Assembly: GCF_029846255.1 (NCBI RefSeq)
Contig: NZ_JARVWQ010000002.1
Coordinates: forward strand, 558,001 to 622,000
Source: Amnibacterium sp. CER49
GTDB taxonomy: Bacteria; Actinomycetota; Actinomycetes; Actinomycetales; Microbacteriaceae
Direction of reading: 5' to 3'
Length of the DNA: 64,000 nucleotides
In this document: positions 2 through 17,573 of the stretch, piece after piece
How positions within the stretch are numbered: position 1 is the first letter of the stretch
How the letters are laid out: each line of letters begins with the position of its first letter
Position numbers and translations under genes: made by a program
Notes under the pieces: generated by a model
The model's database searches: none
Told to the model about the DNA's origin: nothing
The model's input: only the letters and a program-made list of their open reading frames with translations

Positions 2-1750
<1,749 letters not shown>

Positions 1751-2812: not shown

Positions 2813-3328
2813 ATGGACCCGTCTCCGCCGCGCATCCGCCCCGCCGTGCCGGCCGACGCGCAGGCGCTCGGCCGCATGCATCACGCGGCGTGGCGGGAGG
2901 CCTATGCCTCGATCCTGCTGCCGGGATGGTTCGACGACCATCCGATCGAGGAGCGGATCGAGCGCTGGGCGCACCACCTCGGGTCCCCCACGCCCGGCAC
3001 CACGGTGCTCGTCGCCGAGGACGCGGTCGGCGGGGTGATCCTCGGCCACACCATCGCGGGCCCGGCACGGGCGACGGAGGCGCTGCCCGCGGTGCGCGAC
3101 CGCGAGCTGTACTCGCTGTACGTGCTCGCGGCGGCCTACGGGACCGGCCTCGGCCGGCGTCTCCTCGACGCGGCGCTGCCGGATGCGGCGCCCGCACAGC
3201 TCTGGGTCTTCGAGGCGAACGCTCGGGCCCGCCGCTTCTACGAGCAGGCCGGCTTCCGTCTCGACGGCGCCCGGCAGGACGCCTCCGCCGAGCTCGGCGG
3301 CGCTCCGGAGATCCGGATGGTGCGATGA
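2813..3328 (+). CDS. GNAT family N-acetyltransferase
   Basis: A 171-residue acyl-CoA-dependent acetyltransferase of unknown acceptor. The acetyl-CoA motif is visible as LYVLAAAYGTGLGRRLL (Q/R-x-x-G-x-G/A type) around residues 105-120. It is followed by the FEANARARRFYEQAGF segment typical of the C-terminal GNAT half. The ATG at 2813 begins exactly where the family fold begins. No obvious Shine-Dalgarno sequence precedes it. Its stop overlaps the next start (ATGA), so the two genes are translationally coupled. It is divergent from folD. Substrate is not inferable. Confidence 0.85.
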   Translation: MDPSPPRIRPAVPADAQALGRMHHAAWREAYASILLPGWFDDHPIEERIERWAHHLGSPTPGTTVLVAEDAVGGVILGHTIAGPARATEALPAVRDRELYSLYVLAAAYGTGLGRRLLDAALPDAAPAQLWVFEANARARRFYEQAGFRLDGARQDASAELGGAPEIRMVR

Positions 3329-11738: not shown

Positions 11739-12401
11739 CGACGCAGCCTAACCGGACGCCCGCTGGACGCTTCGGGCACGGACCGGCCGCCGACACGCCG
11801 CTCGATCGCGATCGACGCCTCGAACTGGGGGTACGTGGATATGGGGACAGACAGATCGTTCTGTCCGCACTCCTGCTACCGTCTTCACCAGGCGGTACCC
11901 ATCGCCTCCGAAGTACCCGCTTCGGCGAATACAACCGCACCGCCGGCACTTCCCCCCGGCCGGTGGTGCCGGGTGGCGCGCACCTCCCCCCGAGCGCGCC
12001 GCTCGAACAGCGACGCCGGCCGCAGGACTCCCCCCAGCCGCGGCCGGCGTCGCTCCTCCCCCACGGACTCCCCTCGGTCCGCCCCCCAGAGCTCCCCCGG
12101 CTCACGCGCAAGGGCTCCCCCGGCCCCTCCCCCTCGGGCTCCCCGGACCCGTGCGCTCGCTGCTCCGCGACCGGCTCGTCCGGCCGCGCAGGCAGGCCGG
12201 CGCGGAGCGGGCGCGCCCTTCGTGCCGCGCGCGGGCGGGGGGGGACGACCGTGCCGCCGGGGCGAACCCGCATCGTCCGGTCTCGTCTGCTGCGGCGTCG
12301 TCGGGGCGGCCGGCTGCGTCGTCGTCGCACCCTTCCGATTGGCGAGCGGCACGGTGCTACGGTCCGTTCCGCCCGCTCCGGCGACCCGCGAGGAGGACCG
12401 C
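11739..12401. other. 663-bp gene-free stretch with C-runs and small palindromes
   Basis: No convincing gene on either strand; the open frames are compositionally biased shadows. Part 1 (11826-11950) is relatively AT-rich and carries an operator-like palindrome at 11845-11866 (GGACAGA ... TCTGTCC) and a small hairpin CCGAAG-TACCCG-CTTCGG at 11908-11925. Part 2 (11952-12150) carries runs of four to six C roughly every 10-40 nt, i.e. G-runs on the minus strand, often in GGGGGAG contexts. The last ~60 nt should hold the promoter of the hydrolase at 12402. It may be decayed coding DNA (inference). Confidence 0.5.
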
Positions 12402-13232
12402 GTGCAGCGCTTCACCACCTCCGACGGCGTGCGCCTCGCCTACGACGACGAGGGCTCGGGGCACCCGGTGGTGCTCGTCAACGGCTACTGCGCACCGGCC
12501 AGCGCCTGGGTGCTCACCCGCGACGCGCTGCTCGCGGCCGGCTACCGGGTGATCGCGTTCGACCGGCGCGCGCACGGGGAATCCGAGACGCCCATGTTCG
12601 GGCAGCGGATGGCGCGGCACGGCCGCGACCTCGCCGAGCTGCTGGACGTGCTCGGCGAGCCGTCGGTCACGCTGGTGGGCGCCTCGATGGGCGGCAACGT
12701 GATCTGGGCGTACGTCGACCAGCAGGGCACGGACCGACTGGCCGGCGTCGTGGTCGTCGACCAGACGCCACGGATGCTGAACACGGCCGACTGGCCGTAC
12801 GGGTTCTACGGGTTCGACGAGCGCAACGCCTACGTCTTCGCGACGGGGGTGCCCGCCACCGGCCGGGGGCGGCCGGCCGAGCTGTCGGCGCCGGCGATCG
12901 CGCGGCTCGTCGAGCGGCTCGGCGGCCCACCGCGGTACCGGCAGGGGTCCGCGCCCGAGACGGCCGGGCTGCTCGTCGACCACTCGCTGCAGGACTGGCG
13001 CGACGTCGCGGAGCGCGCGGCGTGCCCGGTGCTCATGGTGGCCGGGCGGGACAGCCAGCTCTGGCCGTGCGAGCACGCCGCGGCCGCCATCGCGGGCAAC
13101 CCGCGTGGCCGCGCCATCGTGATCGACGACTGCGGGCACGCCGTCAACATCGACCGGCCCGACCGGCTGAACGAGGAGCTGCTCCGGTTCCTCGCCGAGG
13201 TCGCGCCGGGCGGGGCCGACCGGGGCGCCTAG
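12402..13232 (+). CDS. Alpha/beta-fold hydrolase
   Basis: A 276-residue soluble hydrolase. The N-terminal strands and oxyanion region (VVLVNGYCAPASAW), the nucleophile elbow GASMGG (Ser near residue 97), an acidic residue after a late strand (MVAGRDSQLWP) and the catalytic His in CGHAVNIDRP fit the triad order. The GTG at 12402 is preceded by GCGAGGAGGACCGC, a strong ribosome-binding site. The much longer in-frame ORF from 10953 crosses other genes and is rejected. Esterase, haloperoxidase-like or epoxide hydrolase activities are all possible. Its stop overlaps that of the convergent PRC-barrel-like gene. Confidence 0.88.
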   Translation: MQRFTTSDGVRLAYDDEGSGHPVVLVNGYCAPASAWVLTRDALLAAGYRVIAFDRRAHGESETPMFGQRMARHGRDLAELLDVLGEPSVTLVGASMGGNVIWAYVDQQGTDRLAGVVVVDQTPRMLNTADWPYGFYGFDERNAYVFATGVPATGRGRPAELSAPAIARLVERLGGPPRYRQGSAPETAGLLVDHSLQDWRDVAERAACPVLMVAGRDSQLWPCEHAAAAIAGNPRGRAIVIDDCGHAVNIDRPDRLNEELLRFLAEVAPGGADRGA

Positions 13233-13552
13233 AGCAGCGGGCCGCCGCCTTCGGCGTCCGCCGGGTCGACCTTCACGACCGGCGCGCCGTCCGGCTCCGG
13301 CAGGTGGTCCGCCGCGTCGTCGCCGAGGTCCGTCTCCACGCGGGCCGTGGTGATCGCACCGACGTGGTCCGCGGCGACGAATCGACGCCCTCGCGCCGTC
13401 TCGACCACGATGCCGGTGAAGATGTCGAGCCCGTCGTCCTGGACGACGGTCGCCACCCGTCCGAGCTCGGCACCGCCCGACGAGAGGACGGGGACTCCCG
13501 CCTCGAGGGCGAGGTAGGAGATCGGTCGTTCGCCGCTCGTGTCAGCGCTCAT
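13229..13552 (-). CDS. PRC-barrel-like small protein
   Basis: A 107-residue soluble acidic protein. Residues ~10-75 follow the PRC-barrel pattern of short beta strands (LEAGVPVLSSGGAELGRV, IFTGIVVETARGRRFVAADHV). The C-terminus is acidic and Gly-rich. GAGGAGCCC precedes the ATG at 13552, which fixes the start; the longer ORF to 13630 is not needed. In actinobacteria such proteins are often stress-associated, but nothing here shows that. Convergent overlap with the hydrolase gene is 3 bp. Confidence 0.7.
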   Translation of the reverse strand: MSADTSGERPISYLALEAGVPVLSSGGAELGRVATVVQDDGLDIFTGIVVETARGRRFVAADHVGAITTARVETDLGDDAADHLPEPDGAPVVKVDPADAEGGGPLL

Positions 13553-13639
13553 GGGCTCCTCGATCCGGATGGGGTCCGGCGAGGCTAGCCCCTTCGGCCC
13601 GGCGCCGCCTCGACGAGCGACAGGCGGCACGTACCGAGG

Positions 13640-13738
13640 TCAGGCCGCGTCGCGATGGCCGTGCGCGTTCGCGCAGCTGTCGCAGTTGTGGCCGCAGGAG
13701 CAGCCGGGGGTCGAGCAGGAGTGGCGGCAGTGACACAT
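13640..13738 (-). CDS. Metallothionein-like 32-residue Cys/His-rich protein
   Basis: A tiny gene too short for routine gene callers. The product has 32 residues with seven Cys (2, 4, 8, 13, 15, 19, 22) and five His (3, 6, 17, 26, 28), arranged as MCHC, a central CSC and a CDSC pair, followed by a His-containing tail. This density of thiols and imidazoles is what metal-binding metallothionein-type peptides show. GAGG lies at good distance before the ATG at 13738. A promoter with TTGTGC-N16-TACGCT sits at 13816-13789, giving a short 5' leader. It matches no named family I can recognise (it is unlike MymT or SmtA), so metal binding (Zn/Cu) is inference. It may instead be a small zinc-ribbon-like peptide. 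Confidence 0.72.
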   Translation of the reverse strand: MCHCRHSCSTPGCSCGHNCDSCANAHGHRDAA

Positions 13739-13788
13739 GGGAGTTCCTCGGAGGGGCCTGATGCTGCGGCGTGATCAGGGAGGTCGCG

Positions 13789-13816
13789 AGCGTAGCGCCG
13801 GCCCTGCACGGCACAA
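13789..13816 (-). promoter_or_regulatory. Candidate promoter of the metallothionein-like gene
   Basis: Read on the minus strand: TTGTGC (13816-13811), 16 nt, TACGCT (13794-13789). The predicted start lies about 45 nt before the ATG at 13738. The -10 hexamer is the same TACGCT as at other promoters in this window. Confidence 0.5.
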
Positions 13817-14024
13817 CGGTCCGACACGGCGCGCCGCCGCGCGGCGATTGTCCACTCGGGCCATTGCGCCCGAGCCCTCCAGCTCGGGCGGCCAGGCGGC
13901 ACGCTACGCGGGGCGCACGGGCGCGATCCGAGGGGCACGCCCCGCCGCCGTCGAGGGGACCGAAGGACCCTGGCGGCGGCGGCGGGAGAAGGGCAGGATC
14001 CGCGCCGGGAGCGGGGCGATCGTG

Positions 14025-14231
14025 ATGGCGATGCACATACACCTGCCGCACGTGCCGCAGCGCACGCGTCCGGAGGTGCTGGCGACGGTCGAGGTCGCGC
14101 TCGTGGGCGCGCTGCTCGTCGGCGCCCTCGTCGGGCTCGCGACAGCCGCGGCGGCGCGGTCCGGCGGCATGCCCGGCGACACAGCCCCCGTGCCGGTGCC
14201 GCAGCCCGCGCCCGTGGCGGTGCTGCGCTGA
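14025..14231 (+). CDS. Small hypothetical membrane protein (68 residues)
   Basis: Not a recognised family. A short polar, His-containing N-terminus (MAMHIHLPH) is followed by one strong hydrophobic helix (VEVALVGALLVGALVGLATA, residues ~21-40) and a Pro-rich tail (VPVPQPAPV). A purine-rich GGGAGCGGGG lies upstream; starts at GTG 14022, ATG 14025 or ATG 14031 are all possible. The bulk of the longer frame from 13737 is compositionally unlike protein. It may be a small envelope protein; existence is moderately supported. Confidence 0.5.
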   Translation: MAMHIHLPHVPQRTRPEVLATVEVALVGALLVGALVGLATAAAARSGGMPGDTAPVPVPQPAPVAVLR

Positions 14232-14251
14232 ACCGGCGTGGTGGGTGAGAT

Positions 14252-14413
14252 CTAGAGCGAGACGATCGGCGGGACGCCGAAGCCGTGCGGCGGCTCGGCA
14301 TCGGCCCGCCGCGCGCTGTCGGCCGTGGCGGTGGGGTCGAACAGCTCGTTCGTCTGGTCGAAGACGTGGATCCGCTCGTCGTCGGACCGGCCTGGGCTCA
14401 CGTTCCAGCGCAT
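14252..14413 (-). CDS. Small hypothetical protein (53 residues)
   Basis: A soluble acidic/polar peptide beginning MRWNVSPGRSDDER and containing IHVFDQTNELFDPTATAD, ending PPIVSL. GAAGGAGCGCGGC directly precedes the ATG at 14413, which separates this start from the longer ORF running into the tandem repeat. Biased neither toward Arg nor Ala as shadow frames are, so I think it is real. Function unknown. Confidence 0.55.
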   Translation of the reverse strand: MRWNVSPGRSDDERIHVFDQTNELFDPTATADSARRADAEPPHGFGVPPIVSL

Positions 14414-14827
14414 GCCGCGCTCCTTCCGGGCGGGGCCGCACCGTCGCGGCCCGCTCGCGCACAGTGTGGCGCGCGGGGGCGCCGGGTGGAAGACCCCTGG
14501 ACGCCCGGACCGTGAGGACCGTGGTGCTCGGCGGCCGCGCCCGGTGCTCGGAGTTGGAGGGCACCGGCACCGCCTGGAGGGCGACCGTGACGACGACGCC
14601 GGGCCGGAGCACCAGGCACCAGGCACCAGGCACCAGGCACCAGGCACCAGACACCAGGCACCCGGCACCCGGCACCCGGCACGAGCGTCCAGGTCGAGCC
14701 GAGCCCCGACACCCGAACTGGGGCGCGCGTCGGGGGTGACACGAGGAGTTCACTGGCGCTAGTTGAACCGGTCACCCAGCCGGTCGGCGCTCCCCGGCGC
14801 CGTCCCCTCCCCAAGGACACGATCCCC
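14414..14827. other. 414-bp gene-free stretch holding a heptanucleotide repeat
   Basis: No convincing gene on either strand. It contains the tandem array at 14610-14679 and, near its right end, the promoter region of the secreted-protein gene. Long minus-strand frames across it are produced by the repeat itself (repeating Cys-Leu-Val-Pro-Gly-Ala-Trp). Confidence 0.6.
14610..14679. repeat. Tandem repeat, ten copies of a 7-bp unit (CACCAGG/CACCCGG)
   Basis: Units in order: five CACCAGG, one CACCAGA, one CACCAGG, three CACCCGG, with no interruption (70 bp). The unit length is not a multiple of three. It lies between the 53-residue gene and the secreted-protein gene, about 150 bp upstream of the latter's start. 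Confidence 0.95.
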
Positions 14828-15394
14828 ATGCCCATGCGCTCCCGCGCTGTCGCCGTGCTCGGCGCTCTCGCCCTCTCCACCGTCGCCGTCGTGGCGACCG
14901 CGGCTCCCGCCTCGGCCGCGACCGTCGACGGCAAGGTCTCGTTCTGCCACGCCACCGGCAGCGCGAAGAACCCGTACCTGACCCTGAAGGTCAGCTCGTC
15001 GGCGACCAATGCCTGGTCGTACACGAACGGCACCCACAAGAACGACCTCGGCACCGTCGGTGCGGCAGCTGCCGGCAACACGCCCACCATCTCGGACACG
15101 TCGGGCCTGCCCACGTACTGCATCCCGAACGGCGATGCCACCACGACGCCCTCCAACGGCACCGGTGGCAGCGCGGGCACCACGGACGCGAACCCGTCGA
15201 CCAGCATCGTCGGCACGACGGACGGGGGCACCACGACCACCCCGACGGGCACGACCGGTGGCACCACTGGCGGTACCACGGCCGTGACGGACGGCACGGC
15301 CGGCCCGAGCGCCGGAATCGGCGGCACGGTCTGCACCGTCGTGTACGTCGACCCCACGACCAGCACGAGCACCTGCGCCAACGTGGCGCAGTAG
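14828..15394 (+). CDS. Secreted Thr/Gly-rich protein
   Basis: A 188-residue exported protein. The Sec signal peptide has basic N-terminal residues, a hydrophobic core and an ASA-A cleavage site near residue 31. The mature part starts with a compact segment VSFCHATGSAKNPYLTLKV that resembles the C-H-x-T-x-S-x-x-N-P-Y motif of actinobacterial surface proteins. A Thr/Gly/Ser-rich, repeat-like, probably disordered region follows, then a C-terminal pair of Cys (VCTVVYVD ... STCANVAQ) that could form a disulfide. No sortase motif or membrane anchor is seen. Role unknown; a cell-surface or extracellular protein is likely. Confidence 0.8.
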   Translation: MPMRSRAVAVLGALALSTVAVVATAAPASAATVDGKVSFCHATGSAKNPYLTLKVSSSATNAWSYTNGTHKNDLGTVGAAAAGNTPTISDTSGLPTYCIPNGDATTTPSNGTGGSAGTTDANPSTSIVGTTDGGTTTTPTGTTGGTTGGTTAVTDGTAGPSAGIGGTVCTVVYVDPTTSTSTCANVAQ

Positions 15395-15411
15395 GCCTCG
15401 CGGCAGCATCC

Positions 15412-15448
15412 GGCGCCCCGGCCCTCGCACCTGCGAGGCCGGGGCGCC
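15412..15448 (+). terminator. Strong hairpin terminator after the secreted-protein gene
   Basis: The arm GGCGCCCCGGCC-C-TCGCA pairs with TGCGAGGCCGGGGCGCC (17 bp with one bulged C, 2-nt loop), starting 18 nt after the stop at 15394. Confidence 0.85.
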
Positions 15449-15522
15449 GTCGTCTCCGCTTCCGCTCGGGCCTCGTCGCCCAGGTTCCGCGTCCCCGCCC
15501 GCGGTTCAATCGAACGGCGCGA

Positions 15523-15554
15523 TGCGAGGGGGACGCGCTCGTCCCCGTCTCGCA
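15523..15554 (+). other. Hairpin in the upstream region of the GH42 gene
   Basis: TGCGAG and GGGGAC pair with GTCCCC and CTCGCA (12 bp, 2-nt bulge, 6-nt loop), ending 58 nt before the GTG at 15612. If transcribed it would be a leader attenuator; it could equally be a second terminator for upstream reading. Confidence 0.4.
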
Positions 15555-15611
15555 GAGGACCGCGGGGCGCCGAACACGCGGCGCTGCGAGCAGCACGACG
15601 AAGGGAACGAC

Positions 15612-17573
15612 GTGGACCGGCTCTGGTACGGCGGCGACTACAACCCCGAGCAGTGGCCCGCGGAGGTGTGGGACGAGGACGTCCGCCTCATGCAGCGGGC
15701 GGGCGTCACCATCGCGACGGTCGGCGTCTTCTCGTGGGCCACGCTGGAGCCGCAGGACGGCCGCTTCGAGTTCGGCTGGCTCGACGACGTGCTCGACCGC
15801 CTCCATGCCGGCGGCATCCGCGTCGACCTCGCCACCGCGACGGCGTCACCGCCGCCGTGGCTCGTGCACGAGCACCCCGACGTCCTCCCCGTCACCGAGG
15901 ACGGCGTGGTGCTCTCGGTCGGGTCGCGGCAGCACTACTCCCCCAGCTCGGCGACCTACCGGCGCTACGCGGACCGGCTCGTGCGCGCCGTGGCGGAGCG
16001 CTACCGGAGCCACCCGGCGCTCGAGGCGTGGCACGTGAACAACGAGCTCGGCTGCCACGTGCACCGCGACTACTCCGACGAGTCCGCTGCCGCCTTCCGC
16101 CGCTGGCTCGAGCACCGCTACGGCGACGTGGCGACCCTGAACGAGGCGTGGGGCACGGCGTTCTGGTCGCAGGCGTACTCGTCGTTCGACGAGATCCGTC
16201 CACCGCGCACCGCGCCGACGTTCCGCAACCCGACGCAGCTGCTCGACTTCGACCGCTTCTCGTCGGACGCGTGGCTCGAGGTGTACCGGGCGGAGACGGC
16301 GATCCTCCGCGAGGTCTCGCCCGGCGTGCCGATCACCACCAACCTCATGGGCTTCTTCAAGCCGCTCGACTACTGGCGGCACGCCGCGCTGCTCGACTTC
16401 GTCTCGGACGACCACTACGTGGACCCCGCCGACCCGGCGGCGCCGGTGATCGCGGCGATGACCCGCGACCTCATGCGGTCCCTCGGCGGCGGCAAGCCCT
16501 GGATCCTGATGGAGCAGTCGACGAGCGCCGTGAACTGGCGCCGCCGCAACGCGCCGAAGCCTCCCGGCATGTACCGCGCGCTCAGCCTGCAGGCCGTCGC
16601 GCGCGGCGCGGACGGCGTCATGCAGTTCCAGTGGCGGCAGTCCCGCGCCGGAGCGGAGAAGTTCCACTCGGCGATGCTGCCGCACGGCGGCGAGGACACC
16701 CGGATCTTCCGCGAGACCGTGGCGCTCGGGCAGGAGCTCGCTGGGCTGTCGGACCTCGTCGGCACCCGGCTGACGGCACCGGTCGCGATCGTGCTCGACT
16801 GGGACAGCTGGTGGGCGCTCGAGCAGGCGGCCACGCCGGCCGAGCTGTCGTACCAGCGGCTGCTGCTGCGCTGGTACCGCGAGCTGTGGCGGCGTGGGGT
16901 GCTCGTCGACTTCGTCCGGCCGGACGGCGACGTCGAGGGCTACCGCGTCGTGATCGCGGCGGGCACGCAGGTGCTGCCGCAGGCGGCGCAGGACCGGCTC
17001 GCAGGCTATGTGCGCGGGGGCGGCACCCTCGTCGTCGGCTACCAGACGGCCATCCTCGACGAGCACCTGCACGTGCTGCTCGGCGGCTACCTCGGCGCGC
17101 TCCGGGACGTGCTCGGGATCCGCATCGAGGAGTTCGCGCCGCCCGCGGAGCCGTCCGTCACGGGCGGCCCGGTGCCGGCGCTCGAGCTCGCCGGGCTCGC
17201 TGCCGGGTCCGCGCAGGAGTGGGGCGAGGTCGTCCGGGTCGCGGGCGCCGAGGTCCTCAGCACGTTCGCCGGCGGCATGCTCGACGGCCTGCCTGCGATC
17301 ACCCGTAACGGCTCCGGCGCCGGCGCGGCCTGGTACGTCGCCACGGCGCCGGACGACCTCGGGGCCGTGGTCGACCGGGTGCTCGCGGAGGCGGGTGTCG
17401 AGCCGGGCGTGCCCGAGACGCCCGACGGGGTGGAAGCGGTACGACGCGGCGACCGGCTGTTCCTGCTGAACCACACGGACCACGAGGTCGAGGCGGCGGG
17501 GACCCGGCTCGAGCCCCACGGATCCGCCGTCCTTCCGACGGGAGCGACGGCCGACGACGGACGAGCGGACTGA
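15612..17573 (+). CDS. Beta-galactosidase, glycoside hydrolase family 42
   Basis: A 653-residue cytosolic glycosidase (no signal peptide) that hydrolyses terminal beta-galactosides or related beta-linked sugars. The N-terminal (beta/alpha)8 domain begins WYGGDYNPEQWP. The acid/base Glu is in WHVNNELG (~144) and the nucleophile in LMEQSTSAVNW (~301). The trimerisation domain (GTLVVGYQTAILDEH region) and a small C-terminal beta domain (FLLNHTDHEVE) follow. GTG at 15612 is preferred over the ORF start at 15522 because GAAGGGAACGAC precedes it and the conserved N-terminus starts there. The next gene starts 11 bp after its stop, forming an operon. The natural substrate may be plant galacto- or arabino-oligosaccharides (inference). 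Confidence 0.93.
   Translation: MDRLWYGGDYNPEQWPAEVWDEDVRLMQRAGVTIATVGVFSWATLEPQDGRFEFGWLDDVLDRLHAGGIRVDLATATASPPPWLVHEHPDVLPVTEDGVVLSVGSRQHYSPSSATYRRYADRLVRAVAERYRSHPALEAWHVNNELGCHVHRDYSDESAAAFRRWLEHRYGDVATLNEAWGTAFWSQAYSSFDEIRPPRTAPTFRNPTQLLDFDRFSSDAWLEVYRAETAILREVSPGVPITTNLMGFFKPLDYWRHAALLDFVSDDHYVDPADPAAPVIAAMTRDLMRSLGGGKPWILMEQSTSAVNWRRRNAPKPPGMYRALSLQAVARGADGVMQFQWRQSRAGAEKFHSAMLPHGGEDTRIFRETVALGQELAGLSDLVGTRLTAPVAIVLDWDSWWALEQAATPAELSYQRLLLRWYRELWRRGVLVDFVRPDGDVEGYRVVIAAGTQVLPQAAQDRLAGYVRGGGTLVVGYQTAILDEHLHVLLGGYLGALRDVLGIRIEEFAPPAEPSVTGGPVPALELAGLAAGSAQEWGEVVRVAGAEVLSTFAGGMLDGLPAITRNGSGAGAAWYVATAPDDLGAVVDRVLAEAGVEPGVPETPDGVEAVRRGDRLFLLNHTDHEVEAAGTRLEPHGSAVLPTGATADDGRAD

Follow-up and report, generated by a model that had tools for sequence, protein, structure and literature searches.

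A very small Cys/His-rich gene of Amnibacterium sp. CER49 and a candidate family of zinc miniproteins found mostly in (pro)phages

Results and discussion

The window analysed here, a stretch of 64,000 nt from Amnibacterium sp. CER49, contains a minus-strand ORF (13738-13640) encoding the peptide MCHCRHSCSTPGCSCGHNCDSCANAHGHRDAA, in which we confirmed the 7 Cys and 5 His within 32 aa given by the preliminary description. On sequence grounds this ORF is very likely to be a real gene that is too short for the usual gene finders. The interpretation we favour, with a probability of roughly 55%, is that it belongs to a family of miniproteins predicted to bind zinc or another thiophilic metal, residing mostly in (pro)phages, with the chromosomal copies having been captured or left behind by decay. 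The window product itself is best read as a putative zinc miniprotein that derives from phage and holds one or two metal ions. The features of the locus are collected in Table 1.

Table 1. Features at the locus of the 32 aa ORF, in window coordinates
Feature	Position	Strand	Basis or remark
Cys/His-rich ORF, ATG to TGA, 32 aa	13640..13738	minus	Family member; relatives found elsewhere
Core CRHSCSTPGCSCGHNCDSC, common to relatives	13673..13729	minus	Alignments; coordinates from codon count
Shine-Dalgarno-like GAGGA, 6 nt ahead of ATG	13745..13749	minus	Sequence
Possible -10 element TACGCT	13789..13794	minus	Relaxed pattern; missed by strict scan
Possible -35 element TTGTGC, 16 nt spacer	13811..13816	minus	Relaxed pattern; missed by strict scan
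Same-strand neighbour downstream, 107 aa, PRC-barrel-like by eye	13229..13552	minus	No Pfam match

Coding evidence and genomic surroundings of the ORF

Within the 741 nested start-to-stop ORFs of 20–60 aa in the window, this is the only one of ≤40 aa with at least 7 Cys, and comparable Cys-rich ORFs were absent from all 40 windows simulated with a first-order Markov model (mean 0.0), which makes a chance origin unlikely and upholds the earlier proposal of a gene below the normal length cut-offs. Six of the 7 Cys codons are TGC, and the GC fraction at the three codon positions is 0.52, 0.70 and 0.91. In the core codons of eight family members the third positions vary most (0.382, vs 0.291 and 0.305), which may be taken as a weak sign of coding. 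No signal sequence was apparent by eye in the window peptide, and its AlphaFold model, of low confidence (pLDDT 64, pTM 0.20), shows a helix that spans residues 20–27 and starts with the C-x-x-C motif.

A good ribosome-binding site and a promoter with correct spacing had also been proposed. The GAGGA sequence is indeed present, but a Shine-Dalgarno match of at least 4 bases precedes 16% of 881 ATGs taken as background, and as sole evidence for a gene it is weak. A strict σ70 promoter scan gave no match, but the relaxed pattern TTGNNN-16..18-TANNNT, which was picked with the site already known, has three matches in 64 kb (both strands), of which one is TTGTGC-16-TACGCT, ending 50 nt 5′ of the ATG.

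The downstream 107 aa gene begins at 13552, 87 nt 3′ of the ORF, and since its homologues in two genomes of the same genus have no core-bearing ORF adjoining, it was not taken as a functional partner. Four of 10 neighbouring ORFs tested had Pfam matches (OmdA/DUF1905, a PAP2 phosphatase, an alpha/beta hydrolase and a GH42 beta-galactosidase), with the remaining six matching nothing in Pfam, and of eight neighbours compared with PHROGs only the hydrolase matched (esterase/lipase, and once weakly FabG-like). There was no clear phage gene among the tested neighbours, which look chromosomal, and the window copy does not lie in a lysis module. No tRNA gene was detected in the window by ARAGORN, and Rfam gave no match on positions 12000-16000. 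A tandem array of the 7-base unit GCACCAG (10.6 copies, 95% matches) is located at 14609-14682.

Relatives in cellular genomes

A direct search of 149 genomes gave two accepted places besides the window, L002 and L004 (3 kept, own included, of 91 genomes matching at E up to 1). Using profiles built without the copy concerned, the copy of Naasia genome G446 was recovered at E 1.3e-5 among 398 genomes (4 kept of 53 genomes matching at 0.1), and that of Cryobacterium genome G501 at E 5.4e-7 among 57 genomes (2 kept of 9 matches), while a search of nine Naasia genomes kept both of its two matches. A pattern scan of genome contigs confirmed 2 of 10 stretches, which are the copies of Naasia D00948 and Cryobacterium PH31-O1. 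Presence of the family is patchy: 1/7 genomes in the own genus, 2/9 in Naasia and 2/57 in Cryobacterium by profile, plus G462 via a neighbour gene. The G462 copy, which is the same in sequence as the virus locus L082, was missed by profile A2, and member counts are therefore lower bounds.

No match was accepted in the six other genomes of the own genus, some of which are incomplete; the matches dropped there without inspection had a best E of 0.05 and lay in open frames of 87–542 aa. Samples of the order (396 genomes), class (394) and phylum (396), which overlap the earlier ones, yielded no further accepted member (2/5, 2/2 and 1/3 matches kept, respectively). The weak genome matches that were dropped were inspected in part, and those inspected had no start, sat in long frames or were without the core. 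In another family of the same order, RHDFTSPLCSCDLICDSC is found in a 31 aa open frame without a usual start codon (L077, G810:C7:55375-55431), and may be either a chance occurrence or a decayed relative.

The copies in the window and the two Naasia genomes stand alone in the chromosome. At L061:4935-4949, just 5′ of the Naasia copy and beside a divergent lacI-type gene, lies the sequence TTGCAAGCGCTTCCA, which resembles the LacI operator.

Phage members and their gene context

Next to the window ORF we identified 14 other distinct members, two of them chromosomal in Naasia and 12 in prophages or virus contigs. The Cys/His pattern, the conservation of which had been named as a check on the gene, is conserved in 14 members from other genera and phages, with no accepted match in the six other genomes of the same genus, some of which are incomplete. 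Three of the 12 phage forms are from Cryobacterium genomes and nine from IMG/VR contigs only, with the G501 copy also being present as an IMG/VR contig. Both profile-found Cryobacterium copies are surrounded by tail and membrane genes and adjoin the gene for a protein of 102 or 103 aa, in which a single hydrophobic stretch was seen by eye at the C-terminus. When IMG/VR was searched with the 103 aa neighbour, seven loci were found, and in five of these (one being the G501 contig) a Cys/His ORF is located directly upstream, with its stop overlapping the start of the neighbour gene; no Cys/His ORF was present at L086 and L087. Loci L082-L085 were thereby located independently of ORF similarity, and L082 was recovered at E 2.0e-7 within its own 39-kb record by a profile built without it. 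Later profile scans added L106, L107 and L108, then L109, L112 and L113, with tblastn confirming only 4/27, 1/54 and 6/70 of the pattern stretches, known loci included. When individual peptides were compared with phage and plasmid records by tblastn, matches were weak or absent, and a place in Phyllobacterium (E 3) was dropped for its in-frame stop.

The gene directly upstream of the ORF encodes an M23 endolysin in L085, L108, L109 and L113, and L106 has an Amidase_2 endolysin directly upstream and an r1t-type holin downstream. Both M23 and Amidase_2 enzymes use zinc, and a recognised zinc-type endolysin adjoins the ORF in 5/12 phage loci, these being the only ones for which an upstream endolysin is established. 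Five more phage loci (L062, L074 and L082-L084) have the 103 aa neighbour in common with L085, and the gene 5′ of the G501 copy had no match in Pfam or PHROGs. An overlap between the stop of the ORF and the start of the following gene is seen in 9/12 phage loci (L062, L074, L082-L085, L108, L109 and L113), a count which depends on where those starts were placed in this analysis, and the ORFs of L108 and L113 begin within the endolysin stop. The L112 member (3001-3138) is located between the genes for the small and large terminase subunits, outside the lysis module. This member has an extended tail and is situated beyond an HNH gene.

The 103 aa phage protein (L074:9432-9743, L062:5077-5385 and L082:2501-2812) has GPEPTPWELMRGL near its start and gave weak matches only (phrog_17237, E 0.032; MpPF26, E 0.093); it was found in 1/100 family genomes and 3/57 Cryobacterium genomes. 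In the closely related locus L095, which shares this neighbour, the position of the Cys/His ORF is taken by an ORF encoding MNATHPHSNCEVETISDSLMPVQVDG (1428-1508), with an AGGAGG-like RBS and a single Cys; here the ORF seems to be retained and the metal ligands lost. Proteins with an N-terminal hydrophobic stretch and collagen-like Gly-rich repeats (by eye) are encoded in the same lysis modules at L080:6320-6964 and L113:3327-3983.

A shared core links the window and phage forms

The 15 distinct members have the core C-x-H-x(5-6)-C-x-x-[G/D]-x-x-[C/S]-D in common, mostly ending in C-D-[S/W/F/A]-C, in an alignment where the L113 row is without its last residue. The window peptide has this core, with the 6-residue spacing also seen in both Naasia copies and G501. 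Near-constant ligands across the members number about five (C-x-H, C, C/S-D and mostly C-x-x-C), and the core is not strictly kept, as one core Cys is replaced by Ser in L083 and the last Cys is missing from L082. The chromosomal copies and G501 have two extra Cys, one located two residues ahead of C-R-H and the other two residues past the His, and their spacing is longer by one residue; they have 6–7 Cys with C-x-C and C-x-x-C motifs, in contrast to only 4–5 Cys in 9/12 phage members. With its window-like sequence at a phage position, G501 appears to link the two types.

Pairwise comparison with the two Naasia and two Cryobacterium peptides gave window scores that were reached by 0/5000 composition shuffles, a result which overstates the relationship since these peptides were picked by similarity; for L085, L084 and L082 the corresponding fractions were 0.0004, 0.053 and 0.149. 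Against a profile of the 12 phage members, uncorrected, the window score was reached by 2/4000 composition shuffles and 5/4000 Cys-fixed shuffles, and against the same profile without G501 by 3/4000 and 47/4000, respectively. With the composition correction of HMMER, the window peptide was not significant against the phage-only profile, where it came third among 874 six-frame segments (E 0.11), and without G501 it fell to rank 32 (E 7.1), while the six-member phage profile A10 detected the bridging G501 copy at E 0.033 only. Small Cys-rich peptides can converge, and common descent of the window and phage peptides is considered likely, rather than proven.

Comparison of the window peptide with Pfam at E up to 10 gave only Megourin (E 0.097, 13.4 bits with a cut-off of 27), and the Pfam cut-off was reached by none of the 15 members (best sub-threshold matches Megourin 0.097, DSL 0.11 and Granulin 0.26). 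There were no matches in PHROGs and NCBIfam for the eight members scanned, nor in PDB sequences searched with profile A4, and the family was not described among the literature matches listed for actinobacterial and Microbacteriaceae metallothioneins, phage Cys-rich proteins, lysis cassettes and Naasia small ORFs. The window peptide resembles an undescribed miniprotein family without a named counterpart in Pfam, NCBIfam or PHROGs, in agreement with the preliminary description, which recognised no named family.

Alternative explanations

The ORF had been described as metallothionein-like, and a product that stores or detoxifies Zn, Cd or Cu(I), with at least two ions in a thiolate cluster, is the most credible of the alternatives, albeit a doubtful one. 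The small size and Cys density fit such a role, as do the C-x-C and C-x-x-C motifs of the chromosomal copies and G501, and the copy in Naasia G446 has an LMWPc gene (arsenate-reductase-like by eye) at a distance of about 1 kb. However, Pfam contained no metallothionein model matching at E up to 10, only 4–5 Cys are present in 9/12 phage relatives, none of the 10 tested window neighbours (six of which had no match at all) matched a metal regulator or exporter, and a patchy, phage-linked distribution is unlike that of core metal homeostasis. With approximately five near-constant ligands, a structural zinc site would be a better fit than a cluster for storage; given its additional Cys, the window form might nevertheless hold two metals in a cluster. 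Bacterial metallothioneins of the SmtA/BmtA type (PF02069) and mycobacterial MymT are likewise very small and Cys/His-rich, and like these the family is expected to bind Zn or Cu via thiolates; it differs in being shorter, in its constant core C-x-H...C...C-D-x-C and in having its relatives mostly in phages, and the window peptide, in which 7 of 32 residues are Cys, has no match to the PF02069 profile.

That the product acts through disulfides or redox chemistry, or is a RiPP precursor, is improbable. The C-x-C and C-x-x-C motifs would be compatible with this, but no signal sequence is apparent and the conserved His next to Cys suggests metal ligands. Furthermore, enzymes of the MbnB/TglH/ChrH type (PF05114) were found in 0/5 host genomes, one of which is 68% complete, in a search where the control matched in 2/14, which disfavours a RiPP of the MNIO type, and no modifying enzyme was seen among the 10 window neighbours tested. 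Marginally less probable still is a Cys-rich leader peptide, the translation of which controls the next gene as an attenuator or uORF. Cys-rich uORF attenuators occur in mycobacteria, and the frequent stop/start overlap in phage loci and the same-strand gene downstream in the window are in line with such a role; it is disfavoured because both Naasia copies face convergent genes, with nothing 3′ on their own strand. Moreover, the non-Cys residues R, H, D and S are conserved, the Cys are spaced rather than in a run, and the ORF is absent beside the two same-genus homologues of the downstream window gene. Least probable of all is that the ORF arose by chance in intergenic DNA rich in GC, despite the lack of accepted matches in the own genus, the empty strict promoter scan and the non-significant corrected phage-profile search, as the simulated windows lack such an ORF and the residue-level likeness to ORFs of other genera and phages exceeds Cys placement.

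Proposed function of the miniprotein family

In the favoured reading of a zinc miniprotein family, members of 24–45 residues would bind zinc or another thiophilic metal via the core C-x-H-x(5-6)-C-x(5)-C-D-x-C, a prediction made because of the spacing of the Cys and His residues, with the C-terminal C-x-x-C probably starting a short helix. The constant core would fit a single-zinc finger, and the extra Cys of the window peptide could hold a second ion. Short zinc fingers of the zinc-knuckle and treble-clef types are comparable, as the C-x-H and C-x-x-C pairs of the family could hold one Zn in the same manner, and the low-confidence model has a helix that starts at the C-x-x-C; unlike such fingers, the family consists of free-standing proteins, all 15 of which are without a Pfam cut-off match.

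The phage gene usually lies in the lysis module and overlaps the next start, such that its product would be made late, together with endolysin and holin. This resembles accessory genes of actinophage lysis cassettes, with five loci placing the ORF directly after the endolysin and before small hydrophobic proteins (by eye), but differs in the absence of a PHROGs match for the eight members scanned and of a Cys/His accessory among the literature matches listed. Our guess is that a single structural Zn shapes a protein-contact surface, which in phage may act with the zinc-dependent endolysin. A more specific and rather unlikely version is that, in phages of Microbacteriaceae and neighbouring groups, the miniprotein loads or withholds the metal of the M23 or Amidase_2 endolysin until holin triggering, in which case captured copies could hinder lysis by incoming phage. 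The stand-alone chromosomal copies with extra Cys may have been captured from phage, or retained after prophage decay; we infer this direction of transfer, as we do translation, common descent and zinc binding, whereas the ORF, the common pattern, the setting in phages and the lack of a named family are observed. The preliminary description had suggested a new small metal-binding peptide of actinobacteria as a possibility; from the window alone it could not be recognised that most relatives found are phage genes.

Proteins of <50 residues are easily missed by gene finders, and here a recurrent Cys/His miniprotein of lysis modules was absent from the libraries searched. Should it bind zinc and contact the endolysin, phage lysis would gain a step that involves metal, and a phage origin of the chromosomal copies by capture would make them a neat example of how a minimal metal protein is reused.
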